Assembly (NCBI GenBank): GCA_002280475.1
Contig: NCEB01000014.1
Span: 27,261-91,260, forward strand
From: Brevundimonas subvibrioides
Lineage (GTDB): Bacteria > Pseudomonadota > Alphaproteobacteria > Caulobacterales > Caulobacteraceae
Direction: 5' to 3'
Length of the DNA stretch: 64,000 nt
Made by a program: the position numbers and the translations under genes. The notes below the pieces were generated by a model. It saw only the letters and a list, made by a program, of their open reading frames with translations. It made no database searches and was not told the DNA's origin. The stretch's first letter is position 1, and each line of letters opens with the position of its first letter. Below are positions 25,082-47,808 of this stretch, piece by piece.

Positions 25082-26505
25082 GTCGAACCCTCTTCGGAAA
25101 AGGCGGCCAGCGGCAGGGGCCGGGCGGTGTTGGCGATCAGCGCCTGACGACGGAGAAAGCGGCGATAGCCGTCCTCGCCCATGCGGGAGGGGCCCAGGCC
25201 CGAGCATTTGAAGCCCTGTTTGGCGGCCTCGTAGAAGATGGAGGTGAGGGCGGCGTCGTTCAGGCTGATCGCCCCGGCCTCAAGCCGTCGGCCGACCGCC
25301 TCGGCCTCGTCCAGGGCGGCGGCGAAGACGGCGGCGGACAGACCGTATTCGCCGTCATTGGCCAGGGCGACGGCCTCCTCGACCGTGTCGAACGCCATGA
25401 CCGGCAGGAGGGGGCCGAAGGTCTCGTCGCGCATCACGGCCATGTCGGGGGTGACCTCGGCGATGACGGTGGGCCGCAGCCACAGGCCGCCGCCGTGGGT
25501 CTCGATCTCGCCGCCGGTCAGGACGCGGGCGCCCCTCTGGCGGGCATCGGCGATCTGGGCGGACAGGATATCGACCTGGCGGTCGAAGATGATGGGGCCG
25601 ATCTCTCCCACCGTGATGTCGGGCCAATTCAGGCGGGCGGCCTGCGCCTTCTCGACCAGCCGGGCCAGGAAGGCGTCGTGGATCGGTCGGGCGACATAGA
25701 TGCGCTCGATCGACTGGCAGGCCTGGCCAGTGGACAGGACCGAGCCCCGCAACGCTGCGTCGGTGGCGGCGTCGAGGTCGGCACCCTCCAGCACGATCAG
25801 CGGGTCCTTGCCGCCGAGCTCCAGATAGGCGGGGATCAGGCGGCCGGCGGCCTGGACGGCGACCTTGCGGCCCGTCGCGACCGAGCCGGTGAAGCAGACG
25901 CAGTCGGCGAGGTCGACCACGGCCTGTCCGGTGATCCCGTCGCCGGGGACGAAGGCGAAGACAGCGGCGAGCTCGGGCACCTCGGCCACGGCGGCCATGA
26001 CGGGAGCGATGAAGCGGGGCGTAACCTCGGACGGCTTCACCAGGACGGCGCATCCGGCCAGCAACGCCGGGACCGCATCGATCATGCCCAGAAGAAGGGG
26101 AAAGTTCCACGGGCTGACCACGCCGACGAGGGCATAGGCCTTCCAGGCGGCGGTGTGGCGCACCGACGGCAGACCCCGGCCCTGGATCCATTCCGGCGGG
26201 GCGTCGGCGGCGATGACGCGAGCCCAGGCCTCGATGGAGCCGACGACGCTGTCGATCTCAAGCCGGGCGATGCGGCGGCGGCCGGTGTCGGTCTCCAGCG
26301 CCGCACCGATGGGCTCGGCGTGGCGGCGCAGCGCCTGGGCGAAGGCGCGCAGCACCTCCAACCGGGAGGCGCCCCCCCTCGCCTCCCACCCTTGCTGGGC
26401 GGCGCGAAGGCGGGCGGCGACCTCCAAGACCTCGGCCGGGTCGAGCGCCTGACCGCGCCAGTCGTGGACGCCGGTGCGTGGGTCGCGGGCGGTGAAGCTC
26501 CTCAC
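25078..26505 (-). CDS. Aldehyde dehydrogenase
   Basis: The 475-residue NAD(P)-dependent enzyme has VVSPWNFPLLL, the cofactor loop CFTGSVATGRKVA, the general-base Glu in YLELGGKDPLIVL, and the catalytic Cys in STGQACQSIERIYVA. The C-terminus SRMGEDGYRRF is also typical. It oxidises an unknown aldehyde to the acid. The GTG start at 26505 lies within the stop of the FAD oxidase gene, and the longer upstream frame is that gene read in another register. Pairing with an FAD oxidase suggests alcohol-to-aldehyde-to-acid steps or side-chain clean-up. Confidence 0.9.
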   Translation of the reverse strand: MRSFTARDPRTGVHDWRGQALDPAEVLEVAARLRAAQQGWEARGGASRLEVLRAFAQALRRHAEPIGAALETDTGRRRIARLEIDSVVGSIEAWARVIAADAPPEWIQGRGLPSVRHTAAWKAYALVGVVSPWNFPLLLGMIDAVPALLAGCAVLVKPSEVTPRFIAPVMAAVAEVPELAAVFAFVPGDGITGQAVVDLADCVCFTGSVATGRKVAVQAAGRLIPAYLELGGKDPLIVLEGADLDAATDAALRGSVLSTGQACQSIERIYVARPIHDAFLARLVEKAQAARLNWPDITVGEIGPIIFDRQVDILSAQIADARQRGARVLTGGEIETHGGGLWLRPTVIAEVTPDMAVMRDETFGPLLPVMAFDTVEEAVALANDGEYGLSAAVFAAALDEAEAVGRRLEAGAISLNDAALTSIFYEAAKQGFKCSGLGPSRMGEDGYRRFLRRQALIANTARPLPLAAFSEEGST

Positions 26506-28082
26506 AGGCCCAGCACGCCGGGGTTCATGCGGTTCGTCGGATCGAGTTCGGCCTTGATCGCGCGGATCAGGCGGCGGGAGCCCTCGTCCAGGCTGTCGAG
26601 CCAGGGGTAGGTCCGGCCGATCTGGAAGTGGGCGGCGCCGATCTCGGTGAAGGCCTCGATACAGGCGGCCCGCGCCTCGGCGACGAGAGCGGTGACCTCG
26701 GGGTTCTCGCCATGGCGGGGCAGTTTGGACAGGATGTGCGGCTCCACCGTCGCCTCGTGCAGGGCGCGGCGTTCCTCGGGCCAGACGAACACGGGTTCGA
26801 TCAGCAGGGCGTTTGTGGACAGGGCCGTCAGCATCATGCCCGTCTGCACTCGGCCGGCCTCGAACCGAGGCTTCAGCACCTCGAACCGGGCCATGATGGC
26901 GCGATAGGCGGCCGGGCCGTCGTGGAGCGCGACGAGGCCGTGGACCGGAACCCACCGCTCGCCGTCGGGGCCGAGCACATTGTTCAGCGGGGTGAAGGGG
27001 CTGGCGCGGACCACGCGGGGGATGGAGGCCTCGACCTCTCGACCGCCCAACCCCAGGCAGATGCGCCGCGCCTCGGCCAGATCGGCGTCGGCCCCGGCGG
27101 CGGAGCGGGCTTCGGCGGTCAGGTGGATCGACCAGTCGTCAGCCCCAAGAAAGCCGCGTCCGGCCATGGCCGTGCGGGCCGCGGCCGCCACGCCCTTCAG
27201 GCCGCCCGAGGTCGCCATGGCCCCCAGCGCCTTGATCCCCTGCACGAGAGACGCCCGCTTCAGCCGCATGGCCGACAGGGCCGGGTCGAAGCCGAACATG
27301 TCCGCCGCCACGCCGGCACGACTGATCTCGGCGGTCGCCGCCAGCGCCTGATCCGCCGTGTCGAAGGCGAAGGAACCGTGCGACTCGTGCGCGGGGCTGC
27401 GCATCAGACGCAGGGTGATCTCGGCCTTGACGCCGAGGGCCCCGCAGTCACCGCAGAACAGGCCGGTCAGATCAGGGCCGTAGTGGCGATAGAAGGCGCG
27501 CCCGTCGGCCTTGCGCCGCGCGCCCGTCGAGACCAGCCCCCCGTCGGCGAGCACGACCGTCAGGCCGACGACGCTCTCGGACGTCGTGCCCCAGTGGCCG
27601 GCGCCGAAGACGGCGTTCAGCTGGGACAGGCCGCCGCCGATGGTCGAGGACACGCCCGACAGCGGGCCCCAGAAAGGCGTCCGCAGGCCCTGGGGCTTGA
27701 GCGTTTCCAGCAGGGTCTTCCAGGTGCAGCCGGCCTCGACCGTCACCGTCATGGCCTCGGCGTCGACGTGCAGCACCCGGTCCATGCGGGACAGGTCGAT
27801 CAGGGCGACGGGTCCGGCGTCCGAGGCATAGCCGCCGGTGTAGCTCATGCCCCCGCCGCGCGGGGCGACAGGCAGGTTGAGCCGCGCGGTCTCGGCCAGC
27901 GCGCGCGACAGGCCGTCGGTGTCGGCAGGGCGCAGGATGGCGACGGGGCGGCGGCCTACCTTCCAGATGTCCTGGCCGTAGAGGTCCAGCAGGCGGGGAT
28001 CGGTCAAGACGACATCGGGGCCGAGCGACGCGCGGAGGCTGTCGGCGGGGGACGGGCGGGACAGGTCGTCGGCAGGGCTCAT
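26502..28082 (-). CDS. FAD-binding oxidoreductase (VAO / D-lactate dehydrogenase type)
   Basis: The 526-residue protein has the FAD_binding_4 domain. It shows ILRPADTDGLSRAL, the pyrophosphate loop VAPRGGGMSYTGGY, TVTVEAGCTWKTLLETL, and SSTIGGGLSQLNAVFGAGHWGTTSE cut in family fashion. The C-terminal FAD-oxidase cap ends AELDPTNRMNPGVLGL. Such enzymes oxidise hydroxy acids or alcohols and pass electrons to oxygen, a cytochrome or a membrane partner. Its neighbour is a multi-span membrane protein (ATGA overlap) that could be that partner. The substrate is not predictable from sequence. ATG at 28082 is chosen for the overlap. Confidence 0.87.
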   Translation of the reverse strand: MSPADDLSRPSPADSLRASLGPDVVLTDPRLLDLYGQDIWKVGRRPVAILRPADTDGLSRALAETARLNLPVAPRGGGMSYTGGYASDAGPVALIDLSRMDRVLHVDAEAMTVTVEAGCTWKTLLETLKPQGLRTPFWGPLSGVSSTIGGGLSQLNAVFGAGHWGTTSESVVGLTVVLADGGLVSTGARRKADGRAFYRHYGPDLTGLFCGDCGALGVKAEITLRLMRSPAHESHGSFAFDTADQALAATAEISRAGVAADMFGFDPALSAMRLKRASLVQGIKALGAMATSGGLKGVAAAARTAMAGRGFLGADDWSIHLTAEARSAAGADADLAEARRICLGLGGREVEASIPRVVRASPFTPLNNVLGPDGERWVPVHGLVALHDGPAAYRAIMARFEVLKPRFEAGRVQTGMMLTALSTNALLIEPVFVWPEERRALHEATVEPHILSKLPRHGENPEVTALVAEARAACIEAFTEIGAAHFQIGRTYPWLDSLDEGSRRLIRAIKAELDPTNRMNPGVLGL

Positions 28083-28740: not shown

Positions 28741-28766
28741 CAAATGATCTATTTCTATATCATTTG
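28741..28766. promoter_or_regulatory. GntR1-type operator, site C
   Basis: Arms CAAATGATCTA and TATATCATTTG, nearly perfect. It sits just upstream of the membrane protein gene at 28729, between it and the 3-prime end of gntR1. Confidence 0.8.
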
Positions 28767-28798: not shown

Positions 28799-29629
28799 TC
28801 AGGTCCAGCCTTCGGTGCCCGACTGGCGCTGGGACTTCATGTGATACTGGAAGCGATCGGGCCGGTAGTGACCGACGATCATCTGGACCGGAGCCCCGTC
28901 GGCACCGATCATGGTCCGCTCGATCTTGAGCACCGGCGAGCCCGAGGGCACGTCCAGACAGGCGGACACGGTGGGCGAGGCCGAGGCGGCGGTGATCCAC
29001 TGTTCGGCCTCAACAGCCCCCGCCCCCGCCCGCTCCAGCAGCATCAGCAGCGGCGTGGAGCGCAGTTCCTCGATCGAATAGCGGCCGGCGATGACCGAGG
29101 GGACATAGGTCGTCAGATAGGAGAAGGGCTCGCCCTGAAGCTTGCGCAGGCGCACGGCCCGCTGAACCGTCGCGCCGGGTTCGAGCTTCAGCCGGGCGGC
29201 GACCAAAGCGTCGGCGGGTTCGTCGGCCACCTCCAGCAGCTCGACCTCGGTCGCCAGACCCATGGACCTCAGCGAGGAGATCAGGGTCTCGAACGAGCCC
29301 GACACCATCGGAATGACGCCACCGAGGGTGACGATGGTCCCGCGACCCCGATGGCGGGTGACCAGATTGTTGGCGGCGAGTTCGTTCAGGGCGCGCTTGA
29401 CCGTGATGCGCGACACGTCGAAGGCGCGGGCCAGCTCCTGCTCGCCCGGCAGGGTCGATCCCTCGGCGTATATGCCCGACTGGATCCGCTCGCGCAGGAC
29501 CAGATAGACCTGATGATACAGCGGCGTCGGCAGGGTCCCGTTCAGCAGCCCCGCATAGTCCCCGCCGATGTCCGAAGCGCCGTCGGCCAAATGACCTATT
29601 CCTATACCAACTGAGTCCGCGCTAGGCAT
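28799..29629 (-). CDS. GntR/HutC-family regulator with UTRA domain (GntR1)
   Basis: The winged helix covers about residues 35-100: PTPLYHQVYLVLRERIQSG, then PGEQELARAFDVSRITVKRALNEL and LVTRHRGRGTIV. The UTRA ligand domain follows, with FSYLTTYVPSVIAGRY and PVLKIERTMIGADGAPVQ. The ATG at 29629 places the first 14 codons over operator D; a TTG at 29590 just after it is an alternative start. It is surrounded by 26-bp operators and is the best candidate to bind all seven. It diverges from the nitrilase-fold gene. The effector is probably a pathway acid or imide. Confidence 0.9.
   Translation of the reverse strand: MPSADSVGIGIGHLADGASDIGGDYAGLLNGTLPTPLYHQVYLVLRERIQSGIYAEGSTLPGEQELARAFDVSRITVKRALNELAANNLVTRHRGRGTIVTLGGVIPMVSGSFETLISSLRSMGLATEVELLEVADEPADALVAARLKLEPGATVQRAVRLRKLQGEPFSYLTTYVPSVIAGRYSIEELRSTPLLMLLERAGAGAVEAEQWITAASASPTVSACLDVPSGSPVLKIERTMIGADGAPVQMIVGHYRPDRFQYHMKSQRQSGTEGWT
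29588..29613. promoter_or_regulatory. GntR1-type operator, site D (degenerate)
   Basis: Arms CAAATGACCTA and TATACCAACTG, the weakest match. It overlaps the 5-prime end of gntR1 and lies about 40 bases before the nitrilase-fold gene, consistent with autoregulation. Confidence 0.6.
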
Positions 29630-29653: not shown

Positions 29654-30700
29654 ATGTCCGACCCATCACCCTACATCGCCCTCGCCTTGCAGACGACCTG
29701 CTTCGCCGTCAACGGCGATGCCGACGCCCGCGCCGCTCGGCCGCGGATGGCGGAGGCCATTCGTCGGATCGGCGGACAGATCGCGGCGTCCAAACGCTTC
29801 ATCGGACCCGACGTGCGGCTGGTGGTTCTGCCCGAATATTTCCTGACGGGTTTCCCGATGGGCGAGCCGACGGCGGTATGGGCCGAGAAGGCCTGTCTGG
29901 CCCCCGACGGCGCGGAATACCGGGCGCTGGGCGAGGTGGCGCGGGCCAATGACGTCTTTCTGGCCGGCAACGCCTATGAGACCGACGCGCATTTTCCGGG
30001 GCTGTATTTCCAGTGCAGCTTCGTGATCGCCCCGGCGGGCCAGGTCGTGCTGCGGTACCGGCGGCTGGTGACCCTTTTCGGACCCAGCCCCTATGACGTG
30101 TGGGATCACTATATCGCCCGCTACGGGCTGGACGGGGTGTTTCCAGTGGCGGACACCGAGATCGGGCGGCTGTCGGCGATCGCGTCCGAGGAAATCCTGT
30201 ATCCGGAGATCGCGCGCGCCCATGCCGTTCGGGGCGCGGAGGTCTTCGTCCATTCTTCCAGCGAGATCGCAGCGGCCCTGACCACACCCAAGAACGTGGC
30301 GAAACAGGCTCGCGCCATCGAGAACCTGGCCTATGTCGTCAGCGCCAACTCGGCGGGCATCGAGGGCATCGCCATCCCCAAGGCCTCGACCGACGCCTCG
30401 TCCAAGGTCATCGACTTCCGCGGCCTGGTGCTGGCCGAGGCCGGCTATGGCGAGAGCATGGCGGGCTACGCCGAGATCGATGTCGCGGCCCTGCGCCGGT
30501 ATCGCCGCCGACCGGGCATGCCCAACATCCTGTCGCGGCAGCCGATGCACCTGTGGACCCAGGCCTATGCCGGGGTCGACATCCAGCCGCGCAACACCCT
30601 GCTGGACGGCTCCGGCGGGCTGAACGTGCCCACGCCGGCCTTCTACGCCCAGCGGCAGCGGGCAGTGATCGACAAGCTGGCGGACGCCGGCCTCATCTGA
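29654..30700 (+). CDS. Nitrilase-superfamily protein lacking the catalytic Cys
   Basis: The 348-residue protein has the carbon-nitrogen hydrolase fold, with the catalytic Glu in RLVVLPEYFLTGFP. At the Lys position it reads RYRRLVTLFGP, with Arg. At the nucleophile elbow it reads LSAIASEEILYPE where active members have ICYD-type sequence, so Ser replaces Cys. It may be a non-classical amidase, a Ser-variant or a binding protein. The C-terminal extension of about 60 residues (RNTLLDGSGGLNVPTPAFY) is unusual. It diverges from gntR1 and is probably controlled by site D. Confidence 0.78.
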   Translation: MSDPSPYIALALQTTCFAVNGDADARAARPRMAEAIRRIGGQIAASKRFIGPDVRLVVLPEYFLTGFPMGEPTAVWAEKACLAPDGAEYRALGEVARANDVFLAGNAYETDAHFPGLYFQCSFVIAPAGQVVLRYRRLVTLFGPSPYDVWDHYIARYGLDGVFPVADTEIGRLSAIASEEILYPEIARAHAVRGAEVFVHSSSEIAAALTTPKNVAKQARAIENLAYVVSANSAGIEGIAIPKASTDASSKVIDFRGLVLAEAGYGESMAGYAEIDVAALRRYRRRPGMPNILSRQPMHLWTQAYAGVDIQPRNTLLDGSGGLNVPTPAFYAQRQRAVIDKLADAGLI

Positions 30701-30805: not shown

Positions 30806-30831
30806 CAAATGATCTATAAGTATATCATTTG
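30806..30831. promoter_or_regulatory. GntR1-type operator, site E
   Basis: Arms CAAATGATCTA and TATATCATTTG with centre TAAG. It lies about 20 bases upstream of the second TonB receptor gene. The rest of 30701-30851 holds no gene. Confidence 0.8.
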
Positions 30832-30851: not shown

Positions 30852-32964
30852 ATGATGTCGCAGACCAATCGTGCTCATGGAACCCGGACGGTGATACTCG
30901 CCGGCGTCGCCTTCGCCGCCTTGGCTTCGGTCGCGGCCCCGGCCTCGGCGCAGGACGCTCCGGGCGGCCAGGAGGCCAGCGCGGTCGAGGATATCGTCGT
31001 CACCGCCCGCCGTCGGGAAGAAGCCCTGCAGGACGTGCCGATCGCGGTGACCGCCTTCACCGAAGAGGCCCTGCAGAACCAGCAGATCGAGGATCTGATC
31101 GACGTCGCCCGCTATACGCCCGGGGTGCAGATCCAGCAGGCGTTCGGCCGCGACGGCGATCGCCCGGTGATCCGGGGCGCGTCCAACATCCTGACCGGCG
31201 ACGGCAAGGTCGGCATCTTCCTGGACGGCGTGCCGTGGTTCGGTGACTTCTCGACCCTGGACCTGGACCTGGCTCAGCGCGTCGAAGTGATCCGGGGCCC
31301 GCAGTCGGCGGTCGGGGGATGTCGACGCCTCGATCCGCTACTTCCGCAACGACGATCGCGATTCGCATTTCCCGATCTCGCTGCTGCCGGCGGCCGCCAA
31401 CAACTGCTTCCTGACCACCCGGCCGTATTACTGCGGCGAGATTCCGGTGCCGACCAGCTATGCGCTGAACACCGATCAGATCCTGGTGCCCGGGATCGTG
31501 CGCGAGGGCGAACGCTGGGTCGCCGACGTGAACTGGGACATCGCCGGCTCGGGCTATGTCCTGTCCTATCTGGGCGGTCAGAACGACGTCTATGAGTCGG
31601 CCGGCTACGACGGGACCTACGACGCGCGCGACTTCTTCGTGCTCGGCGCGGGTTGCCCCTTCATCCCGATCGCGAACCGGTTCTGCCCCCGCTCGGCCTT
31701 CTACGACACCTCGGCGTCGGATCGGTCGACCCAGACCCATGAGCTGCGGCTGTCCAGCCCCGGAGACAACCGCTTCCGCTGGAGCCTGGGCTACTACACC
31801 GCCGAGGACGAGCTGACGCCGCTGGCCAAGTATCTGGAGGTGACGGAGGTCGGCTTCGACGTCCTGGGGGCGATCAATCTGGTGGAGACCGAGGCCTGGT
31901 TCGCCAGCGCGGACTTCGACTTCACCGAGGATCTGACCCTGACGCTGGAGGTGCGGCACCAGGAGGACCAGATCACCTCGACCAACCAGACCTATGTCGC
32001 GTCGCAGTATTTCGGACCGGAAGTCTTCGCCCGGGTGCGCAGCCCCAATCCAAACGCCGTCGTCGGCACGCCGGGCACGCGCAACACCTCGTTCGACGCC
32101 ACCCTGCCCCGCGTGACCCTGACGTGGGAGCCGTCGCCCGAACTGACGCTGTACGCGCAGTACGCCCAGGGCAACTCGCCCGGCGGCTTCAACGACCCGG
32201 CCGCGCCGATCACCACCTACGAGGAAGAGACCCTCACCAACTACGAGATCGGGGCCAAGACCCGGATGTTCGGGTTCGATTATCTGAACGCCTCGCTGTT
32301 CTTCAACAGCTACGAGGACCAGGTCCTGACCAACACCTTCGTGGCGTTGACCGCGATCCAGAGCTACCGGGCCAACATCGGCGAGACGGAGCTGAAGGGG
32401 CTGGAGCTGGAGGGCGGCTATAGCCTGACGGACAACATCCGGGCCCGGTTCACCTATTCCTACATCGACGCCGAGATCGTCGAGGGCGTGGACGGCGACC
32501 AGGCCGTGCTGCTGCTCGGTCGGACCTGCATCCTGGGCACGGCCAACAACCTGGACGGTCCCGGTTGTCGCGCCGCCGGCGACATCTCGGGCAAGGAGCC
32601 GCCGCTGGTGTCGCGCCATCTGGGAAGCGCCGGCATCCGCTGGGACGGTGACACGATGGACAACGGCTGGAACCTGTTCGCCTCGGCCGACCTGACCTAT
32701 CGCGGCGAGTTCTTCGAGCAGGTCCATAACAACATCACCATCCCGGCCTCGACCCGCGTCGACCTGCAGGTGGGGGTCCAGAACGACAATCTGCGCCTGT
32801 CGATCTGGGGCAAGAACGTGGGCGACGACGACGCGCCCGTGGGGGTTCTGCGCTACGTCGATTTCATCGCTCCGAACGGACCGGCGGGGGTTCGCCCGCG
32901 CGCCTTCGGCGTGACCCCCGGCGAACTCAGCAGCTACGGCGTGACCCTGAGCGCCCGCTTCTGA
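30852..32964 (+). pseudogene. TonB-dependent receptor (2), internal deletion and frameshift
   Basis: The first frame gives a signal peptide, a TonB-box region (VEDIVVTARRREEALQDVP) and plug as far as RVEVIRGPQSAV at about 31310. The frame then fails. In the next register the sequence picks up in the barrel (DVDASIRYFRNDDRDSHFP) and runs uninterrupted to a terminal Phe in TLSARF at 32964. Compared with receptor 1, roughly 250-300 bases between the plug and the barrel are missing and the register changes. The rest of the barrel is well preserved, so the lesion is either recent or an assembly error. It is the first gene after site E and is followed by the CpcT-like gene with a TGATG overlap. Confidence 0.85.
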
Positions 32965-33941
32965 TGAGAGCGGCCTTGCCCGTCGTCTCCCTGCTGGCCC
33001 TGTCGGCCGGGCGGGCGGCGGCGGGCGATCCGGCGCCCGCGCCTCAGGCCGTCGCGGTGCTGGAGCGCGATCTGCCCCGGCTGGTCGAGATGTTCCAGGG
33101 CGACTGGGACAACGCCGACCATATCGGCTTCGCGGCCGAGCTGGGCTTTCCCGACGACACGCCGCCGATACGTCGCCATCTGACAATCCGGCGGGTCGAA
33201 GCCCCGGGTCTGGGCCCGATCGTCCTGCGCCTGGACGAGTATCGGAACAACGATTCCGCCGATCTCGGGCGTCAGCGGCTGTACGCCTTCGCCGTCGATC
33301 CGGCGAAGATGGCGATCCGGATGGACGTGCTGACGCCGCCCGGTGAGGATCGGCTGGACCCGGACGCGGATCACTCCGGGCTGACGCGCGCGGCGATGCG
33401 GTTCAATCCGGGCTGCGAGACCCTGTGGCGAAGGAATGCCGATCAGTTCGTCGGCTGGATCGAGGACGGGGCGTGCCGGGTTCGCTCGCAGGGTGGCGCG
33501 GGGCCGGAGCTGACAATCGGGGCCGAGATCGCCCTGTCGGCGGACCAGCTGTGGATGACCGAAACGGCGCGGGACGGCCGGGGCCGGAACGCTTTTCCCG
33601 ACCAGCCCGAGGCCCCGGTCCAATACCGCCGCGCCACGGCCTTCACCTGCTGGATCGCCGTGCCCCGGCAGGCCCCGCAAGAGGGCTGGTTCCATGCTCG
33701 GGACCTGGCCATCCACGACCAGGGCGGCGAGGCCTGGGTGACCACCGACGAGGCCACCCCCCGGACCTATGGCTTCAGGATGCGCAACGTCCGCTGGCCG
33801 ACGGGCCTGAACGCCGACGCCCTGACGCTTTACGTCCATGACCAAAGGGACGCGCCCGCGATCAGCTACGCCTGGGCCAGCCCGGACGCGACGCGGATCG
33901 GGATCAATCTGCGCACCCTGCAGGGCAGCTGTTCGCGCTAA
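32964..33941 (+). CDS. Exported CpcT/CpeT-like (bilin lyase family-like) protein
   Basis: The 325-residue precursor has a signal peptide (LPVVSLLALSAGRAAA). The body resembles the CpcT/CpeT chromophore-lyase family: LPRLVEMFQGDWDNADHI, a strand ending VLRLDEYRN, then GCETLWRRNADQFVGWIEDGACRV and LTIGAEIALSADQLWMTETARDGRG. Known members fold as lipocalin-like barrels that hold linear tetrapyrroles for attachment to phycobiliproteins. No phycobiliprotein exists here, so a binding or processing role for a pyrrolic ligand is an inference. The last 100 residues (TAFTCWIAVPRQ onward) form an extra domain. It follows TonB receptor 2 and is convergent with the lipocalin-like pair. Confidence 0.6.
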   Translation: MRAALPVVSLLALSAGRAAAGDPAPAPQAVAVLERDLPRLVEMFQGDWDNADHIGFAAELGFPDDTPPIRRHLTIRRVEAPGLGPIVLRLDEYRNNDSADLGRQRLYAFAVDPAKMAIRMDVLTPPGEDRLDPDADHSGLTRAAMRFNPGCETLWRRNADQFVGWIEDGACRVRSQGGAGPELTIGAEIALSADQLWMTETARDGRGRNAFPDQPEAPVQYRRATAFTCWIAVPRQAPQEGWFHARDLAIHDQGGEAWVTTDEATPRTYGFRMRNVRWPTGLNADALTLYVHDQRDAPAISYAWASPDATRIGINLRTLQGSCSR

Positions 33942-34384
33942 GCCACTCTGCGCTCATCGATCAAGGTGCGCTGGTAGCATTCCCCGTCGCGGAACCAGTG
34001 CCAGGTCCGCGCCCGCGTCCGGCCGTCCGGAGCCAGGACGATCAGTTCGTACAGATGGGCGCCAGGCGCGTCGGTTCGTTCCCAGGTCAGGATGCAGGTG
34101 CGCGCGTCGCCCTGCCAGGCGTGGCCGCTGATCAGGCCGGTGTCCCACCACAGTCGCCCGTCGCGATAGACGCCGGGGTGGGTCGCCTCCACCACCCGGC
34201 CATCGGGCCAGGCGAAGCGGTTCTTCTGGACATAGGCGTAGGGCCCGTCGTCGGGAAACGACACCTCGATGCGCGAGGCGTGGCGGTCGACCTCGATCCC
34301 GTCCGTCGTGGCGGTGCGATAGGTCCCCTCCCAGACGCCGGCGTGGCGGACCAGGGCGGGCATGTGCTGATGCAGAGGGTTCAC
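33938..34384 (-). CDS. Lipocalin-like / DUF3598-like protein (B)
   Basis: The 148-residue protein (GTG start inside the upstream stop) is a paralogue of its upstream neighbour. It shows VRHAGVWEGTYRTATTDG, PDDGPYAYVQKNRFAWPDGR and RTRARTWHWFRDGECYQRTLIDERRVA cut into alternating strands. The GxWEG motif and overall strand order resemble the lipocalin-type barrels of the DUF3598 and CpeS-like group, but I am not certain of the family. No signal peptide is seen. A shorter ATG start at 34363 is possible. The 3-prime end overlaps that of the CpcT-like gene by 4 bases. Confidence 0.65.
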   Translation of the reverse strand: MNPLHQHMPALVRHAGVWEGTYRTATTDGIEVDRHASRIEVSFPDDGPYAYVQKNRFAWPDGRVVEATHPGVYRDGRLWWDTGLISGHAWQGDARTCILTWERTDAPGAHLYELIVLAPDGRTRARTWHWFRDGECYQRTLIDERRVA

Positions 34385-34827
34385 GCGACCCGGCGTTCCG
34401 TGATGCAGGTGCGCCTGAACAGGGTGTCGTTCTCGAACCAGTGCCAGGTGCGGGCGCGCTTGTTGCCGTCCTCGGACAGCTGGATCATCTCGTAGAGATA
34501 GGCGCCGGGCATGTCCTTCCTCGTCCAGGTCAGGCAGACGGTGCGGGGGTCGATCTCCCATGCGCGGCCGTCGATGCGGTCGGTGTCCCACCAGATCTGG
34601 CCGTCGCGATAAGTGGCGGGGAAGTGGATTTCTTCCTTTCGGCCGTCGTCCCAGATGTAGGTGTTGATCTGATAGTAGGCGTAGGGACCCTCGTCGGGGA
34701 ATTGGCACTGGAGGCGCGAGCGGTGGCGGTCGATGACATTGTTGTCGGGATCGACGTGGATGTAGTCGCCTTCCCACTCGCCGGCGTGGCGTGCCAGGAC
34801 CGGCATGCCTTCGCGGATTCCACTCAT
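34381..34827 (-). CDS. Lipocalin-like / DUF3598-like protein (A)
   Basis: The 148-residue protein starts MSGIREGMPVLARHAGEWEGDY and continues with FPDEGPYAYYQINTYIWDDGR, WWDTDRIDGRAWEID, CLTWTRKDMPGAYLYEMIQL and ARTWHWFENDTLFRRTCITERRVA. About half of its residues match protein B by eye, so the pair arose by tandem duplication. It is probably a small-molecule-binding barrel in the cytosol. Site F lies 40 bases upstream of its start, between it and the divergent enoyl-CoA hydratase gene. The longer frame to 34869 would cross the operator. Confidence 0.7.
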   Translation of the reverse strand: MSGIREGMPVLARHAGEWEGDYIHVDPDNNVIDRHRSRLQCQFPDEGPYAYYQINTYIWDDGRKEEIHFPATYRDGQIWWDTDRIDGRAWEIDPRTVCLTWTRKDMPGAYLYEMIQLSEDGNKRARTWHWFENDTLFRRTCITERRVA

Positions 34828-34866: not shown

Positions 34867-34892
34867 CAAATGGTATAGACTTAGATCATTTG
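34867..34892. promoter_or_regulatory. GntR1-type operator, site F
   Basis: Arms CAAATGGTATA and TAGATCATTTG. It lies between the divergent lipocalin-like pair and the enoyl-CoA hydratase gene, 28 bases before the latter. Confidence 0.75.
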
Positions 34893-34919: not shown

Positions 34920-35699
34920 ATGAATGACGCGCTGAAGGTCGAGGTCGCGGGCGATGTGGCGACCCTGATCCTGAACCGACCCGAGAAGAAGAACGCCCTG
35001 ACCCTGGCCATGTGGAGCGCCCTGCCCGGCCTGTTGGCGGGCGTAGCGGCGGACACGTCGGCCAAGGTGCTGGTGGTGCGGGGCACCGGCGGGACCTTCG
35101 CGGCCGGTGCCGACATCGGCGAGTTCGAGACCGTCTATGCGACGCCGGACAGCACGCGCGCCTATTTCGACCGGGTGGGCGAGGCGATGGAGGCGCTGGC
35201 GACGTTCGAGAAGCCGACCGTGGCGATGATCGAGGGGGCCTGCGTGGGCGGTGGGCTGGGGCTGGCGCTGGCGTGCGATCTGCGGATCGCGGCGACCGAC
35301 GCGCGGCTGGCGCTGACGCCCGGCAAGCTGGGGCTGGTGTATTCGCTGCCGGATACGCGGCGGCTGGTGCAGGCGGTGGGGTTGTCGAAGGCCAAGGACA
35401 TCCTGTTCACCGGGCGGCTGATCAGGGCGGAGGAGGCGCTGGCGATCGGGCTGGTGGACGCCCTGCATGCGCCTGACGCGCTGGAGGCCACGGTGGCGGA
35501 GAAGACGGCACAGATCGCGGCGGCCAGCCAATGGACCGCGCGCCGGGCCAAGGAGATCGTGGGTCTGATCGCCGACGGGGAGACGGCGGATACGGACGCG
35601 ACGGCGCGCTGGCTGATCGAGGCGGTCGAGGGCGAGGATTTCCACGAGGGGCGGGATGCGTTTCTGGGGAAGCGGAAGCCGGTGTTTCCGTTTCGGTGA
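34920..35699 (+). CDS. Enoyl-CoA hydratase/isomerase family protein
   Basis: The 259-residue crotonase-fold protein has VATLILNRPEKKNALT, the oxyanion-hole region GGTFAAGADIGEF, and IEGACVGGGLGLALACDLRIA. Where classical hydratases carry the two catalytic Glu residues, it reads ACVGGG and PGKLGLVYSL, so only part of the pair is evident and it may be an isomerase or hydratase of unusual substrate. The C-terminal FLGKRKPVFPFR is typical of crotonases. It stands alone under site F and could act on crotonyl-CoA or a related enoyl-CoA formed in the island. Confidence 0.85.
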   Translation: MNDALKVEVAGDVATLILNRPEKKNALTLAMWSALPGLLAGVAADTSAKVLVVRGTGGTFAAGADIGEFETVYATPDSTRAYFDRVGEAMEALATFEKPTVAMIEGACVGGGLGLALACDLRIAATDARLALTPGKLGLVYSLPDTRRLVQAVGLSKAKDILFTGRLIRAEEALAIGLVDALHAPDALEATVAEKTAQIAAASQWTARRAKEIVGLIADGETADTDATARWLIEAVEGEDFHEGRDAFLGKRKPVFPFR

Positions 35700-35866: not shown

Positions 35867-35967
35867 CCCTCTCCCGTAGGGAGAGGGCTTGAGGCTCGGA
35901 GAGCGAAGCGATCCGCAAGGACGACGCTGCGCGCCTTGCGCTCAAGCCCTCTCCCTCTGGGAGAGGG
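35867..35967. repeat. Palindromic intergenic repeat, family B
   Basis: Two hairpins, CCCTCTCCC-GTA-GGGAGAGGG and CCCTCTCCC-TCT-GGGAGAGGG, flank a centre in which CTTGAG pairs with CTCAAG. The right end overlaps the last codons and stop of the amidase gene. Confidence 0.8.
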
Positions 35968-37267
35968 GGAGCGGTGTGGCCAGCTTCCCCGCCAACTCCA
36001 GGATCGCCCCGCTGTCCCGCCCGATGATCTGCGCCGACAGGGGCATCCCGTCACCTGACAGGCCCATCGGAAACGCCACCGCCGGCAGACCGGCCATGTT
36101 GGCGAGGCAGGTGATGTCGGCCTGGTCCGCCGGAATATGAGAGCCGAAGGGGAAGGCGGGGCCGCCCGTCGTGGGGCCCAGGAGGCCGACGCGGTCGCCG
36201 ATCAGGGCCTCGACCGCCGCCTTGGCGGACGCGATCTCGGCGCGGGCCTCGGCGAGCTTCTCCGGCGGCTGGGCCGCGCCCCAGCGGAGCATGCCGGCGA
36301 AGGTCTCGGAGAAGCCGTCCGGTCGGGCCTCCAGCATGTCGGCGTGTTCGGCCAGGCCTTCGACCTCGGAGATAAGAAGACCGCGACGGCGAATGCGGCC
36401 GAGATCAATGTCGAGGGGGACCGAGCCTTGAAGCAGCCCTTGGGCTTCGGCGACGGCGATCACGGCGAGGAAGGCGGCGCGGACGTCGTCGGACAGGGTC
36501 GCACGGTCTGTCACGTCCAGCGCGGCGAGCGGGCCGGAGGGCGACGCGGGGTCCGGCGTGGCGATCTCGGCCAGCAAAGCGGCACAGTCCCCGGCCGAAC
36601 GGGCGTGGACGCCGACGTGGTCGAGGCTGGGCGCCAGGGGCGTGACCCCCTCGTCCGAGATCGCACCGTAGCGGGGCTTGATGCCGAACACGCCGCAGTA
36701 GGCGGACGGAATGCGAACCGAGCCCATGGTGTCGGTGCCCAGCGCCGCCGCGCACAGGCCCGCCGCCACCGCCGCGCCCGAGCCGCCCGACGATCCGCCC
36801 GCCGTGAAGCCCTCGCGCCAAGGGTTCTGGGTACGGCCGAACCAGGGATTGTCCGTGACCGCGCCCAGCGCCCCCTCCTCCATGTTCAGAGTGCCGAGGA
36901 GGATCGCGCCCGCCGCCCGCAGCCGTCTGACGCAGGCGGCGTCGCGGTCGGCGATGCGGTCGCGATAGGCACCGATGCCCGCCGTCCAGGGTAGGCCGGC
37001 GACGGCGATGTTCGACTTCACCCCCACGACGCAGCCGTCGAGTGGAGACAGGGCCATGCCGGAAGCCCAACGGTAGGATGAGGCGCGGGCCGCGTCGCGG
37101 GCGCCATCGATGTCGAGGTCAATGAAGGCGTGAATCGCCGGGTTCATCCGCTCGATGCGGGTGAGATAGGTCGCCAGCACCGCGTCCGGACGGGTCGAGC
37201 CCTCTGCGTAGGCGGCGGACAGGGCCACGACGCCGGCAGTCACCTCTGGCTCGAACGGGCCGATCAT
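35942..37267 (-). CDS. Amidase (amidase signature family)
   Basis: The 441-residue hydrolase has the Ser-cisSer-Lys triad: the Lys in CVVGVKSNIAVAG, and the two serines in FTAGGSSGGSGAAVAAGLC. The region GTDTMGSVRIPSAYCGVFGIKP is also diagnostic. It could hydrolyse a half-amide, or an acyl amide, of the pathway. It is last in the operon running from MmgE1 through MmgE2 and the PaaK-like ligase, all joined by ATGA overlaps, under the second GntR operator. Its last residues, ATPLPLSQRERA, are read from repeat B, so the native C-terminus has probably been replaced. Confidence 0.9.
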   Translation of the reverse strand: MIGPFEPEVTAGVVALSAAYAEGSTRPDAVLATYLTRIERMNPAIHAFIDLDIDGARDAARASSYRWASGMALSPLDGCVVGVKSNIAVAGLPWTAGIGAYRDRIADRDAACVRRLRAAGAILLGTLNMEEGALGAVTDNPWFGRTQNPWREGFTAGGSSGGSGAAVAAGLCAAALGTDTMGSVRIPSAYCGVFGIKPRYGAISDEGVTPLAPSLDHVGVHARSAGDCAALLAEIATPDPASPSGPLAALDVTDRATLSDDVRAAFLAVIAVAEAQGLLQGSVPLDIDLGRIRRRGLLISEVEGLAEHADMLEARPDGFSETFAGMLRWGAAQPPEKLAEARAEIASAKAAVEALIGDRVGLLGPTTGGPAFPFGSHIPADQADITCLANMAGLPAVAFPMGLSGDGMPLSAQIIGRDSGAILELAGKLATPLPLSQRERA

Positions 37268-38664
37268 CAGAACCGCTCGTCGATCAGGCGGATGGGTTTC
37301 TGGCGGACGTCGATCTGGGTCAGGGCGGCGGTCTGGCCCCGTTCGACCAGTTCGACCTCGACCTCGATGCCGATCTTGCGCTTCAGGATCTCGCCGAACC
37401 GGTCCGCCAGAGCCGGATCGCCGGGGGCCGAGGCCTCGGCGACGACGACGAAGGTGTCGCGGCCGGCGGCGTCGCGGCGGGTCTTGCAGACGAACTCGCC
37501 CGCGAACTCCGGCGCCTCGTCCAGCATGGGGCCGATGGCCTGGGGGAAGATGTTGATGCCGCGCACCTTCACCATGTTGTCCGAGCGGCCCAGGAACCCC
37601 TCGATCCGCTGGAAGGCGGCCCCGATCGACGAGGGCCGGGTGATGACCTCGGTCACGTCATGGGTGTTGAAGCGGATGATGGGATACAGGTCGTCCTTGT
37701 AGAGACAGGTCACAACCATGTCGCCGAGGGCCCCGTCGGCCACAGGCCTGCCGGTGTCGATGTCGCAGACCTCCAGATACTGGGCGTCCTCCATGACATA
37801 GAGACCGTCGCGGTCGGGGCCTTCGCCCGCGATGCAGCCGGTGTCGCCGACGCCGTACCAGTCGAAGCATTCCGCCCCGCCCCAGGCGTCGGACAGGGCC
37901 TGTTTGTCCTCGCGGCCCATGTGGCCGGAAATCATGCGGACGGGGATATCGACGCCGGGGACGAGGCCCGCCTCGCGGGCGACCTCGGCCAGGCGTTTGA
38001 TGTAGTCGGCGAAGCCGACGATGGCGGTGGCGCCGAAGGTCGTCATCAGCTCGACCTGCTGGGCCGAACGGGTCTCCACCCCCGTGCCCGCAGACATGAA
38101 GACGGCGCTGGTCCAGTGGGTCACGGCCTCGCGCACATAGTGGCCGCCGTTGATCATGCCGTGGCCATAGACGGAGTGGACCACGTCGCCCGAGCGCAGA
38201 CCCTGCCAGCGGTAGAGGCGGGCCAGCAGCAGGTTCTGGACCTCGCGCGACTTGGGCCCGAACAGCAGGACCTGGGGCTTTCCGGTGGTGCCCGACGTGG
38301 TGTGGAAGATGACCGGCGGGCGCTGATCCTCTGGGTAGGACTCGAAGCCCGCGAAGTCGCCGAAGGGGGGGGCGATCTCCAGCGACTTCATGATATCGGA
38401 CTTGTCGAAACTGGGCAGGTTCGGGAGGTCGTCGAGGCCCCGGATGTCGCCCTCGGCGATGCCGGCGGCGCCCCACAGGCGACGGTAGAAGGCGGTCTTC
38501 CAGGCGCGGGCGACGCAACGGGCGAACAGCTTTTCCTGATGCGCGCGGAGCTCGTCGCGGCTGATCGAGGTCACCAGCCGGGTGAAGGCGTCGCCGATGG
38601 GGTGGTCGCGGGCGATGGCCGCGAAATCGATCTCGTCCCAGTAGGTGCGGTGGGTGTCGGTCAT
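37267..38664 (-). CDS. Phenylacetate-CoA ligase-like adenylate-forming enzyme
   Basis: The 465-residue protein resembles PaaK-type aryl/acyl-CoA ligases: the P-loop VIFHTTSGTTGKPQ, DLPNLPSFDKSDI near the N-terminus, WYGVGDTGCIAGEG in the active site, and the C-terminal hinge FLGRSDNMVKVRGINIFP. It makes an acyl-CoA from a carboxylate, ATP and CoA. The acid is unknown; PaaK members also act on aliphatic and heteroaromatic acids. ATG at 38664 is within the MmgE2 stop, and the long frame beyond is MmgE2 in another register. It feeds the CoA-dependent enzymes of the second regulon. Confidence 0.85.
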   Translation of the reverse strand: MTDTHRTYWDEIDFAAIARDHPIGDAFTRLVTSISRDELRAHQEKLFARCVARAWKTAFYRRLWGAAGIAEGDIRGLDDLPNLPSFDKSDIMKSLEIAPPFGDFAGFESYPEDQRPPVIFHTTSGTTGKPQVLLFGPKSREVQNLLLARLYRWQGLRSGDVVHSVYGHGMINGGHYVREAVTHWTSAVFMSAGTGVETRSAQQVELMTTFGATAIVGFADYIKRLAEVAREAGLVPGVDIPVRMISGHMGREDKQALSDAWGGAECFDWYGVGDTGCIAGEGPDRDGLYVMEDAQYLEVCDIDTGRPVADGALGDMVVTCLYKDDLYPIIRFNTHDVTEVITRPSSIGAAFQRIEGFLGRSDNMVKVRGINIFPQAIGPMLDEAPEFAGEFVCKTRRDAAGRDTFVVVAEASAPGDPALADRFGEILKRKIGIEVEVELVERGQTAALTQIDVRQKPIRLIDERF

Positions 38665-40028
38665 CGGTGGGCTCCGAGCAGGGAGAGGATCGAAGAGGCG
38701 TCGTCCAGGGTCTCGAACCGATCGATGGTGTCGGCGAGGGTGGCGGCGTTGGCGCCGAGGCCGGCGAAGTCGAGGCAGGCGGCCTGTTTGGCCAGGTGCT
38801 GGTCGCGGGTCAGGGGCTGGGCGGGCGAGCCGAGCTGGGCGGTGACGGTGTGGGTCAGGGCGCGGCCGTCGGAGGTGGTGACGGTGAGCGTCGCGGGCGT
38901 GAAGGCGGCGGGGTCGGGGTTGGCGTCGGCCTCGACCCGGATGCGCTCGGCGAGGATCAGCAGGGCGGGGTTGGACAGGTGCTCGGGCGTGAAGTCGGCG
39001 AGGCCGACCGTGCCGCGCGTCAGGACGACGGCCCCAAGCCACGGCAGACACAGCCGCGCCCAGGCCGGGGCCATGTCCGGGCTGGGGCGGCGGCCGACCA
39101 GGCGGGGGATCAAAGGCGGCGCGCGATAGACGGCCTCTGCGACGTCGGCGGCGGACAGTCCGTGCTGCGTCATCAGGGTCTGGAGGGCGACGATGCCGCC
39201 GTGGGCCGCCCGGCCGGTCGGGAAAGGCTTCCAGCTGACCTCGGCGATGCGGAAGCCGGGGGCGGGATCGGTCAGGGGGGTCAGATCGTGGGCGGTCTCG
39301 AACAGGGTGAGATAACCGAAGGGGCCCTCGATCGAGGCCTCCGGTCCGGGCAGGCCGGCCTCGGCGAGGTCGGCGGCCATGACAGCGGCACGGGCGGCGT
39401 TGGCGATCTGGATCGGCAGGGCGGGCTTGCCCTCGGCGTGGGCCTGCATGGTGCCCGACGCGAAGGCGAGGGCGTATCCGAAGGCGGAGACGCCCTGATC
39501 GGGCGACAGGCGGCGAAGCGAGATCAGGGCGGCGACGCAGCCGAAGATGCCCGCCGTCGCGGGGCGGAAGAACTTGAGCGGCGTCGTGGCGCAAAGGCCC
39601 AGGGAGGCGGCGATTTCGGCACCCGCTACGAGGGCGGTCAGCAGGGCCTCGCCGGAGATGGGTTTGCCCTCGGCGGAGGCGCGGTCGGCCTCGGACAGAA
39701 TCACGGCCCCGACCGTCGCCATGGGGTGGACCACGGCCGGTTCGTGGACGCAGTCGAACTCCTGGGCGTGGATCTGGACGGCGTTGACGAAGGCCGCCGA
39801 GGGCTGGGGCAGGCGCACGCCGGGGTGGCCGAGGACGCCGCAGTGGGTCCCCTCGCCCCAGCCACGAGCGGCGGTCAGGACATTGTCGGCCAGCGGCGCG
39901 CGGGCCCCGGCGGCGCCAACGCAGAGGGTGTCGTGCAGGAAGGTCCTGGCGGCGGCGCGGGCCGCCGGGTCGAGGTCGGCCCAGGTCAGGGCCAGGGCGC
40001 GCTCGGCGAGGGTGCGCGACAGGGTCAT
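38661..40028 (-). CDS. MmgE/PrpD family protein (2)
   Basis: The 455-residue protein has the family pattern FLHDTLCVGAAGARAP near the start. It also has FVNAVQIHAQEFDCVHEPAVVHPMATV, which carries the conserved His/Asp region, then LKFFRPATAGIFGCVAA and SWKPFPTGRAAHGGI. Known members include 2-methylcitrate dehydratase, cis-aconitate decarboxylase and iminodisuccinate epimerase, so a hydro-lyase, decarboxylase or epimerase acting on a branched di- or tricarboxylate is expected. It is next to a paralogue (4-base overlap), and the two may form a heterodimer. Confidence 0.85.
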   Translation of the reverse strand: MTLSRTLAERALALTWADLDPAARAAARTFLHDTLCVGAAGARAPLADNVLTAARGWGEGTHCGVLGHPGVRLPQPSAAFVNAVQIHAQEFDCVHEPAVVHPMATVGAVILSEADRASAEGKPISGEALLTALVAGAEIAASLGLCATTPLKFFRPATAGIFGCVAALISLRRLSPDQGVSAFGYALAFASGTMQAHAEGKPALPIQIANAARAAVMAADLAEAGLPGPEASIEGPFGYLTLFETAHDLTPLTDPAPGFRIAEVSWKPFPTGRAAHGGIVALQTLMTQHGLSAADVAEAVYRAPPLIPRLVGRRPSPDMAPAWARLCLPWLGAVVLTRGTVGLADFTPEHLSNPALLILAERIRVEADANPDPAAFTPATLTVTTSDGRALTHTVTAQLGSPAQPLTRDQHLAKQAACLDFAGLGANAATLADTIDRFETLDDASSILSLLGAHR

Positions 40029-41407
40029 GCGGCCCTGCCCGGCAAGGCGATGGACAAGTCGGCGACGGTGAAGGTCAGGCCCAATCCCTCGACGGCAATG
40101 ATCAGTGCTTCGGCCGCATCCGGGGTCATGCCGCCCCAGGCCATCAGGGCGCGCGCCTTGTCGCGGACGGCGTCGGGCGACAGGGGGTTCTCGGGATCGC
40201 CGAGGGCGTCCAGCGCCTCGATGCGGTGTTCGACGCCGCCCGCCGTGGCGATCAGGCGCGCGCCGAAGCGGGCCGGATAGGCGGCGGTCAGGTCGTCGGC
40301 GACGGCGACCGAGACGCGGGCGCGCAGGGCGGCGACGCCGGGGTCGGTCAGGGCGGCGGGCTCGAACCGCGCGAGGCCCGCGTCGCCGTGGATCAGGGCG
40401 ACGGCCACGCTGTGCTGGAGCGAGAACTTGGCCTCGGGGACGGTCGTCGGGCTCGGCTTGTCGCAGAAGAGGACGCTGTCGCGGTAGGTCTCGACGCGGA
40501 TTGTCCGAAGAACTGGGTCCCCGCTTTCGCGGGGATGAGCGGAGAAGGGAAGGAGCCGCGCGCGCAGGGCCAGCGCCGCGTCGATGGTGGGGTGGGCGTG
40601 GCGGCAGGCGGCGTGGGGTTTGAAGCTGACCTCGTGGATCAGCCAGCCGTCGGCGGGCGCCAGCACGGCCTCGGGATCGGCGTCGGGGGCCATGGCGGGG
40701 AAGAGGCCCTGCTCGCCCTCCAGCACCCGGAGCGGTCCTCGAAAGCCGTCGCGGGCCAGCAGAGCGGCCGCCACGCCGTTCGCCGCCGCCCGGCCGTCGT
40801 GCAGCGCCTTGACCGAGCCGGGCTCGTGCCGCGCGCGCCACAGGCCCGCGCCCTGCTGGCCCGCGAGGCCCAGCGCCCAGGCCGTCCGTTCGCCGTCCAG
40901 CCGCATCAGGCTGGCCCCCGCCGCCGCCGCGCCGAAGCCGCCGATCGTGCCGGTCGGGTGAAAGAAGCGATAGTGCGACGGCCCCGCCGCCCGGCCGATG
41001 CGGATCATGGCCTCATAGCCTCGGACGACCGCGTCCAGCAGGACCTCGCCGTCGGTCACGTCCAGATGCTGGACGAGGGCCAGGGCGGCGGGCATGACCA
41101 CCGGGCCGGGGTGCAGCAGCGCGCGGCGGTCGACGTCGTCCATCTCCAGGATCGCGCCCGCCGGGCCGTTGGCGAACGCGGCCGCCTGGGGCCCGACCCG
41201 GCCGCCGCCGACAATGCGGCAAGGCCCCTGCCCCTCGGTCTCGGCCAAGGCGGCGACGCGGGCCACGTCGGCCTCCCGCGCGCCCGCCACGGCGCACCCG
41301 ACCCAGTCCAGAAGGTGCAGTCGCGCCCGCGCGCGATCCCCGGCGGAGACCGGCCGGCCCAGCCGTTCGACCAGCCGCTCGGTGATAGAGGACAAATGTC
41401 CGGACAT
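40025..41407 (-). CDS. MmgE/PrpD family protein (1), with in-frame repeat insertion
   Basis: The 460-residue protein shows HLLDWVGCAVAGAREAD, FANGPAGAILEMDDVDRRALLHPGPVVMPAALA and FFHPTGTIGGFGAAAAGASLM, all family blocks. Near residue 295 it contains a foreign peptide, SAHPRESGDPVLRT, encoded by a palindromic repeat (40505-40545). The stretch after it (DSVLFCDKPSPTTVPEAKFSLQHSVA) resumes family sequence, so the insertion is in-frame and perhaps tolerated in a loop. The ATG at 41407 lies inside the second GntR operator; a later start is possible. It is first in the operon to 35942. Confidence 0.82.
   Translation of the reverse strand: MSGHLSSITERLVERLGRPVSAGDRARARLHLLDWVGCAVAGAREADVARVAALAETEGQGPCRIVGGGRVGPQAAAFANGPAGAILEMDDVDRRALLHPGPVVMPAALALVQHLDVTDGEVLLDAVVRGYEAMIRIGRAAGPSHYRFFHPTGTIGGFGAAAAGASLMRLDGERTAWALGLAGQQGAGLWRARHEPGSVKALHDGRAAANGVAAALLARDGFRGPLRVLEGEQGLFPAMAPDADPEAVLAPADGWLIHEVSFKPHAACRHAHPTIDAALALRARLLPFSAHPRESGDPVLRTIRVETYRDSVLFCDKPSPTTVPEAKFSLQHSVAVALIHGDAGLARFEPAALTDPGVAALRARVSVAVADDLTAAYPARFGARLIATAGGVEHRIEALDALGDPENPLSPDAVRDKARALMAWGGMTPDAAEALIIAVEGLGLTFTVADLSIALPGRAA
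40505..40545. repeat. Palindromic repeat inside MmgE1
   Basis: Stem CCCCGC / GCGGGG with loop TTTC at 40519-40534, in the sequence context that codes for HPRESGDPV. This peptide signature marks a widespread short palindromic repeat of proteobacteria that is usually intergenic. Confidence 0.7.
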
Positions 41408-43453: not shown

Positions 43454-43586
43454 CGTCATCCTCGGACTTGATCCGAGGATCGGACGTCGTTCGAATGATG
43501 AGCCAGACGGTCGTGCACGATCGGGGGTCGCTGCCAGCATGTCCGCCACGGCGGGTCCGATCCTCGGATCAAGTCCGAGGATGACG
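43454..43586. repeat. Perfect 32-bp inverted repeat, family C
   Basis: Arms 43454-43485 and 43555-43586 are exact reverse complements (beginning CGTCATCCTCGGACTTG). Each arm is itself palindromic. The core of 69 bases is non-coding. The right arm supplies the last codons and stop of the CaiB-type gene at 43569. Confidence 0.85.
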
Positions 43587-45043: not shown

Positions 45044-45044
45044 T

Positions 45045-46444: not shown

Positions 46445-46450
46445 GAGCCT

Positions 46451-47807: not shown

Positions 47808-47808
47808 G

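Follow-up and report, generated by a model that had tools for sequence, protein, structure and literature searches.

The closest described counterparts of the proteins treated here are the T-type bilin lyases CpcT and CpeT and the plant protein CRL, the barrel proteins of the DUF3598 family, chloroplast BFA1, nitrobindin and pigment binders such as UnaG. For the enzymes encoded around them, the itaconate (RipABC) and 2-methylcitrate pathways and the dimethylmalate pathway of nicotinate fermentation comprise similar families. Here, we describe a 64-kb window, meaning the whole stretch of DNA analysed, from Brevundimonas subvibrioides; it is part of contig C29 of a draft genome of 3.13 Mb. The window encodes a CpcT-like protein and two small barrels, LipA and LipB, in an island of catabolic genes. 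An earlier note on this DNA had read all three as bilin-lyase-like proteins that may bind, import or process a pyrrolic pigment for catabolism, an interpretation that our analysis supports in part. A shared operator, synteny and co-occurrence support the assignment of the CpcT-like protein and both barrels to one regulon. This regulon would take up and degrade a nitrogenous ring compound, for which a tetrapyrrole-derived substrate is the most coherent guess, a tentative reading to which we give a little less than even credence.

Some 10^12 kg of chlorophyll are made and degraded each year. Literature searches on bilin and maleimide catabolism, judged at title level, returned no paper on bacterial genes degrading these rings, and a search on DUF3598 and DUF1838 returned none with either term in its title or abstract. 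Bacterial tetrapyrrole-ring degradation becomes directly testable with an operator that is defined, a likely regulator and a carrier of the T-type lyase fold. If true, this reading would give a CpeT-type protein a role beyond phycobilisome assembly, and would place single-barrel DUF3598 proteins and DUF1838 in a functional setting.

The shared operator and the proteins it connects

Six places in the window carry a palindromic operator of 24 bases with the consensus AAATGATnTAnnnnTATATCATTT. Two AT-rich palindromes spotted by eye led to the search pattern ATGATNTAYAANTATAYCAT, for which the site at 30809 served as template; with up to three mismatches it gives 10 strand-matches at these six places and none in 100 shuffles. 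The looser pattern ATGATNTANNNNTATANCAT, with at most one mismatch, finds seven places in the whole genome and none in the control. The seventh (C35:7895) has a VOC-like gene on one side and a gene for a small protein on the other, both named by eye, and a DUF1838 gene (C35:8417-9139) stands about 0.5 kb beyond it. The likely binder of the operator is GntR1, a regulator encoded within the cluster.

The same operator recurs near relatives of LipB. A species collection contains 419 loci with such relatives, and the 80 best were read. The scoring matrix was trained on the window sites, which therefore cannot count as independent evidence; the sites of the relatives are partly independent. Loci below 55% GC (24 of the 80) were kept apart from the other 56 in these counts and were excluded from one matrix scan, which used a single-base shuffle as control. 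At a score of 20, 32 of the 56 loci of at least 55% GC contain an operator (65 sites, against 0.2 per shuffled set) and 27 have it upstream of the barrel gene. Raising the score to 30 leaves 17 of the 56 loci (33 sites, none in the shuffled sets), 13 of them with the site before the barrel gene. On the strength of the shared operator and of the co-occurrence described below, we reject the idea that these genes are chance neighbours.

The CpcT-like protein (325 residues) directly follows a TonB receptor, as the earlier note had stated: the TGA of the receptor reading frame and the ATG of the CpcT-like gene overlap by one base. Residues 72-209 pass the PF06206 (CpeT) cut-off of 21 with 28.9 bits (E 1.3e-6). 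In a search of the whole genome the score is 30.6 bits, and PF06206 and DUF3598_N each have a single match there. Judged by eye, the N-terminus is hydrophobic and signal-like, in keeping with the export proposed earlier. An AlphaFold2 model computed from a 16-sequence alignment has a mean pLDDT of 83, and its residues 31-225 superpose on CpcT with bound phycocyanobilin (4o4s) with Z 19.7 and a root-mean-square deviation of 2.7 over 180 aligned residues. They are followed by CpcT 4o4o (Z 19.6), plant CRL 6lix (17.3) and phage CpeT 5hi8 (14.8); the next entries after this T-type set reach only Z 9.4. By sequence, phmmer with the window protein alone found no CpcT or other barrel relative in the PDB. 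A profile of 16 sequences, the window protein and 15 relatives, reaches CpcT 4o4o at E 0.0023, and the relative at locus L077 finds CpcT at E 3e-5. The modelled N-terminal domain (residues about 31-225) is thus supported as a member of the T-type lyase fold, and the earlier placement among bilin-lyase-like proteins holds for this protein. Residues 226-325 form an extra C-terminal domain that is conserved in the relatives.

The PF06206 match and the CpcT fold are also what one would expect of a true phycobiliprotein lyase acquired from cyanobacteria. We reject this explanation as hardly credible. Phycobilisome proteins (PF00502) occur in none of the 10 LipB-positive genomes of the family, the window's own included, which bears out the earlier statement that phycobiliproteins are missing and argues against a lyase role. 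The protein moreover looks exported and carries the extra domain. Two further CpeT-like proteins were seen elsewhere. Locus L143 of the Caulobacterales has a second signal-bearing open reading frame (681-1343), CpeT-like by eye, near a third CE4-family hydrolase gene, and a gene at about 10239-10916 of L117 scores 129 bits against PF06206, with a lipoprotein-like start (by eye) and an ordinary neighbourhood outside the regulon.

The receptor preceding the CpcT-like gene, TonB2, is the second of its kind in the window, as had been noted, and this copy is disrupted: relative to the 793-residue copy of genome G216, residues 157-243 are lost and the frame changes. Six other gene-called copies have 791-794 residues (two from strain AAP58 and two from strain Root700), and the copy at L035, a locus from a metagenome-assembled genome (MAG), is also short, with 492 residues. 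The break could be an assembly error. The adjacency of the two genes suggests that the CpcT-like protein might bind no pigment and instead assist the receptor in the periplasm, as its partner or chaperone. A TonB-type gene lies directly upstream in the window and in 9 of 16 CpcT neighbourhoods, hand-picked and not random, from 52 CpcT-positive genomes of the order, and the extra C-terminal domain is conserved. In eight other loci, however, the CpcT-like gene follows CE4 hydrolase genes, and DUF1838 or other genes separate it from the receptor. We regard this role as improbable.

The two adjoining barrels that the earlier note had called DUF3598-like are real and in tandem, with a 4-base overlap, on the strand opposite to the CpcT-like gene. 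They share a divergent promoter region with the enoyl-CoA hydratase gene and not with the CpcT-like gene. LipB passes the DUF3598_N (PF12204) cut-off of 22 with 24.6 bits; LipA, at 13 bits, falls below it but is a paralogue with 54% identity to LipB. By inspection alone, with no predictor applied, neither shows an evident signal peptide. Alignment A3 comprises these two barrels and 35 of the 78 gene-called relatives. The AlphaFold2 model of LipB (pLDDT 96.5) is a ten-stranded barrel, closest to BFA1 (Z 17.8), DUF3598 2o62 (16.1) and nitrobindin (about 15), with lower matches to the OssO and OlmO spirocyclases (14.7 and 14.1) and UnaG (11.2). The S-type lyase CpeS (4tq2) and Ycf58 (3bdr) score 12.8, below BFA1, DUF3598, nitrobindin and others, and a Pfam scan of the window barrels at E up to 1 gave no match to the CpeS family. 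An S-type lyase identity was rejected on these two grounds; the barrels do not appear to be bilin-lyase-like in the narrow sense, and the earlier placement is not supported for them. The ligand cannot be read from the barrel fold alone. Searched singly against the PDB with phmmer, LipB found no barrel relative, weak matches to green fluorescent protein (E 0.046 or higher) being taken as chance, and a LipB profile reaches 2o62 only at E 1.6. Beside LipB in Nostoc lie HisS- and AroA-like genes, named by eye, which look like housekeeping neighbours.

Distribution, synteny and co-occurrence

LipB relatives occur in 10 of 299 genomes of the family, and the nearest named ones are from Caulobacteraceae and Brevundimonas. 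The right half of the island is syntenic in five of the nine other LipB-positive genomes (G216, G088, G148, G294 and G237). In G135 the contig stops at this point, G011 has only the enoyl-CoA hydratase gene beside LipB, and little is kept in G105 and G106. DUF1838 is present in all 10 LipB-positive genomes, a count that covers these genomes only. PF06206 passes in at least two of the 299 genomes, both LipB-positive; this search missed the window's own copy, which makes the count a lower bound.

Among the 398 genomes of the order, the CpcT-like protein occurs in 52, LipB in 54 and both in 41 (Fisher p 3e-34, ignoring descent). Counted by genus, both are present in 17, the CpcT-like protein only in 4, LipB only in 3 and neither in 35 (p 2e-8, again ignoring descent). 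Of the 16 chosen CpcT neighbourhoods, 7 also include the LipB gene (L133, L139, L142-L145 and L148). Further afield, eight loci, mostly from gammaproteobacterial MAGs, combine two CE4 hydrolases, a CpcT-like protein, DUF1838-type and flavin-amine-oxidase-type proteins, a TonB receptor and LipB, most of them also with FADox and an amidase; the DUF1838 and amine oxidase labels were Pfam-scored in L061 only. In cyanobacterial and acidobacterial loci, the nitrilase-like gene and the aldehyde dehydrogenase gene both lie near LipB in 16 of 27. Neighbour labels are incomplete at L080, L124 and part of L133, these at least having been misread by our custom gene-calling script. The locus L038, filed as a Methylocystis MAG, contains a Brevundimonas-type cluster with all labelled genes except the receptor at 72-95% identity, and is probably a misbinned contig.

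The earlier note had placed these genes in a non-photosynthetic context. This is accurate for the neighbourhood, no photosynthesis gene being found among the window genes searched, and not for the organism, whose genome has two Photo_RC genes, presumably pufL and pufM. Photo_RC genes are enriched in LipB-positive genomes of the family (5 of 10, against 18 of 289 LipB-negative ones; p 3.4e-4), as would be the case if the host were an aerobic anoxygenic phototroph that used the system to salvage its own bacteriochlorophyll or bilin. Half of the LipB-positive genomes have no reaction centre, however, the TonB receptors point to uptake, and the correlation may stem from habitat or descent; such a salvage role appears very unlikely. 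Several LipB relatives, in a sample that is not random, come from organisms isolated with cyanobacteria or algae (Aquidulcibacter, Niveispirillum lacus, Phycosocius, UKL13-1 and Alkalicaulis satelles).

Enzymes of the island and the candidate substrate

The enzyme families of the island were assigned by Pfam and NCBIfam (Table 1).

Table 1. Operator sites and genes of the island, with positions in the window
Feature	Position	Strand	Remarks
Operator	15006-15029		Upstream of the operon of aconitase-like large/small subunits, lyase and CE4 hydrolases
Aconitase/isopropylmalate-isomerase-like large and small subunits	15065-16884	+	
Methylisocitrate/2,3-dimethylmalate lyase-like enzyme	16881-17759	+	
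Two polysaccharide-deacetylase-family (CE4) hydrolases	17756-19631	+	First PuuE-like; candidate cyclic-imide hydrolases
Isochorismatase-family amidase	20266-20961	-	
Operator	21029-21052		Between isochorismatase-family amidase and TonB1
TonB1 receptor	21122-23422	+	
Aldehyde dehydrogenase and GlcD-like flavoprotein	25078-28082	-	
Operator	28742-28765		Upstream of the membrane protein, FADox and aldehyde dehydrogenase operon
GntR1, GntR/UTRA regulator	28799-29629	-	Within the cluster
Weak operator-like site	29589-29612		Divergent start of GntR1 and nitrilase-like gene; score 25.0
Nitrilase-superfamily protein	29654-30700	+	E-R-S instead of E-K-C active site
Operator	30807-30830		Upstream of TonB2 and CpcT-like gene
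TonB-dependent receptor TonB2	30852-32964	+	Pieces 30852-31595 and 31447-32964 in different frames
CpcT-like gene	32964-33941	+	325 residues, two domains
LipA	33938-34384	-	DUF3598_N-like single barrel, 148 residues; GTG start, internal ATG at 34363
LipB	34381-34827	-	DUF3598_N single barrel, 148 residues, conserved across phyla
Operator	34868-34891		Between LipB and enoyl-CoA hydratase gene
Enoyl-CoA hydratase/isomerase family	34920-35699	+	
Amidase, AMP-ligase-like protein, two MmgE/PrpD proteins	35942-41395	-	
Second GntR/UTRA regulator of the island	42723-43436		
CoA-transferases, acyl-CoA dehydrogenase, MaoC hydratase, RipC-like C-C lyase, third CE4-family hydrolase, SDR, HapK-like protein, GST, small open reading frames	43569-52639	-	
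Operator	52668-52691		Between HapK/SDR and methyltransferase

The CE4 family includes cyclic imide hydrolases. The nearest solved relative of the first CE4 hydrolase is of the PuuE (allantoinase) type, that of the isochorismatase-family amidase is N-carbamoylsarcosine amidohydrolase, and those of the lyase-like enzyme are 2-methylisocitrate lyases, 2,3-dimethylmalate lyase ranking lower. Nitrilase-superfamily enzymes use a Glu-Lys-Cys triad. When the window's nitrilase-like protein was aligned with 26 relatives (L035-L114) from Proteobacteria, Nostocales and Acidobacteria, Glu-Arg-Ser replaced the triad in 26 of the 27 sequences, the remaining one being without these segments. Judging by sequence, this conserved change predicts a different chemistry or a loss of hydrolysis.

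The HapK-like protein was considered as a sign of prodiginine synthesis and dismissed, being a single small protein with 37.1 bits. A 237-residue protein (24371-25081), conserved in the relatives, is without a Pfam match (E 1e-4) or an NCBIfam match (1e-12). Past the last operator, a methyltransferase and a 120-residue protein (52720-54305) form a pair that also stands beside LipB in the cyanobacterial MAG locus L112 (55% and 53% identity).

The T-type fold and the operator shared with amide- and imide-type hydrolases and dialkylmalate-type enzymes make the earlier wording, that these proteins bind, import or process a compound for catabolism, a fitting one. From these elements we infer import and catabolism of a nitrogen-containing ring compound, which we guess to be a tetrapyrrole remnant, either a bilin or a chlorophyll catabolite, from which methyl-ethyl maleimide and hematinic acid would arise. 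The TonB receptor would import the ligand, and the exported CpcT-like barrel, to judge by its fold and by the overlap with the receptor gene, may receive or shield it in the periplasm. Periplasmic and cytosolic oxidases might then cut it to small pyrrole-derived imides and aldehydes. The family assignments suggest that CE4/PuuE-type hydrolases would open the cyclic imides, that the isochorismatase-type amidase and the amidase would release ammonia, and that the aconitase-like dehydratase and the methylisocitrate-lyase-like enzyme would split the dialkylmaleate to pyruvate and an acid, the CoA genes finishing the side products. LipB, conserved across phyla, may act in the cytosol on an intermediate that the pathway variants share, either as a binder or as a non-redox enzyme. 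By our own reasoning, a dialkylmaleimide would have to pass through a hydrolase, an amidase, a dehydratase and a lyase in this order, and methyl-ethyl maleimide and hematinic acid so treated would yield pyruvate with butyrate or glutarate. Hematinic acid and maleimides are reported as products of chlorophyll and heme (PMC7318184).

The same regulon may instead act on another nitrogenous ring compound of cyanobacteria or algae, such as a hydantoin, a ureide or an imide natural product, the T-type barrel having been recruited to bind it. Ureide-type substrates are possible because the nearest solved relatives of the hydrolases, allantoinase and the carbamoylsarcosine enzyme named above, act on ureides and N-carbamoyl compounds. 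A Pfam Amidohydro_1 protein, hydantoinase-like by eye, is also found near LipB in some cyanobacterial and acidobacterial loci, and the deltaproteobacterial MAG locus L077 has HyuA/HyuB-like reading frames (by eye). On the other hand, the pair formed by the aconitase-like and methylisocitrate-lyase-like enzymes suits a dialkylmaleate better than a ureide, and the company of a CpcT/CpeT fold would be accidental. We consider this alternative possible, if rather doubtful.

Several observations weigh against a tetrapyrrole substrate or against a single coherent regulon. None of the known enzymes that open tetrapyrroles was recognized in the regulon, and CRL shares the T-type fold in plants, which is why the fold is no proof of bilin binding. 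Three enzymes score below their NCBIfam equivalog cut-offs, so that the family labels do not fix the true substrates: the PuuE-like enzyme (121.7 against 424.6, for 17756-18703, the only CE4 gene scored), the PrpB-like enzyme (281.6 against 354.4) and the RipC-like enzyme (205 against 375). For leaves, PMC7318184 reports the detection of hematinic acid and not of maleimides. The 24 loci below 55% GC lack the operator at score 30; lowering the score to 20 gives 39 sites, compared with 28.6 in shuffled sequence, and none of the 39 lies before a barrel gene. The CpcT-like protein is present in only 15 of the best 80 loci, at E below 1e-45 with a self-derived profile; tblastn adds one more, in L039. 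In the order, 11 of the 52 CpcT-positive genomes have no LipB and 13 of the 54 LipB-positive ones no CpcT-like protein, and the co-occurrence figures are inflated by shared ancestry and habitat. Three of the 16 chosen CpcT neighbourhoods (L138, L146 and L147) are devoid of genes belonging to the module itself. An apparent leuB lies near the aconitase-like pair of L135 and L137; this pair may thus serve leucine biosynthesis. The PF06206 gene of the LipB-positive genome G011 stands in an ordinary neighbourhood.

With these points taken into account, the tetrapyrrole reading can be extended, as a speculation that we hold to be somewhat unlikely, to a widespread bacterial regulon that would break down tetrapyrrole pigments, whether bilins or chlorophyll catabolites, completely. 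The pigment would enter by TonB uptake, be carried in the periplasm by the CpcT-type protein and be cleaved to substituted maleimides and succinimides; hydrolysis of the imides and cleavage of the dialkylmalate would follow. A core, made of LipB, the E-R-S nitrilase-like protein and aldehyde dehydrogenase, also occurs in Nostocales and Acidobacteria, where it may recycle their own pigments.

Comparison with known systems

The CpcT-like protein resembles the T-type lyases CpcT and CpeT (4o4o/4o4s and 5hi8) and CRL (6lix) in the fold of residues 31-225 (Z 14.8-19.7) and in the PGC...GxC cysteine pair of the profile alignment. It differs from all of them in that it looks exported, is fused to a second domain, is linked to a TonB receptor and belongs to a genome without phycobiliprotein. 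LipB has its closest folds in DUF3598 (2o62) and chloroplast BFA1 (5yvf) and scores above the PF12204 N-domain cut-off, but is a single barrel of 148 residues located in a catabolic regulon, whereas their chains have 269 and 322 residues, respectively. With nitrobindin and FABP/lipocalin pigment binders of the UnaG type it shares the ten-stranded barrel (Z about 15 and 11.2), at a sequence identity of only about 7-12%. The island as a whole has the MaoC, RipC-like lyase, aconitase-like and PrpB-like families in common with the itaconate, 2-methylcitrate and dimethylmalate pathways. It departs from these in its RipC and PrpB scores, which lie under the respective cut-offs, and in its possession of imide- and amide-type hydrolases together with TonB receptors.

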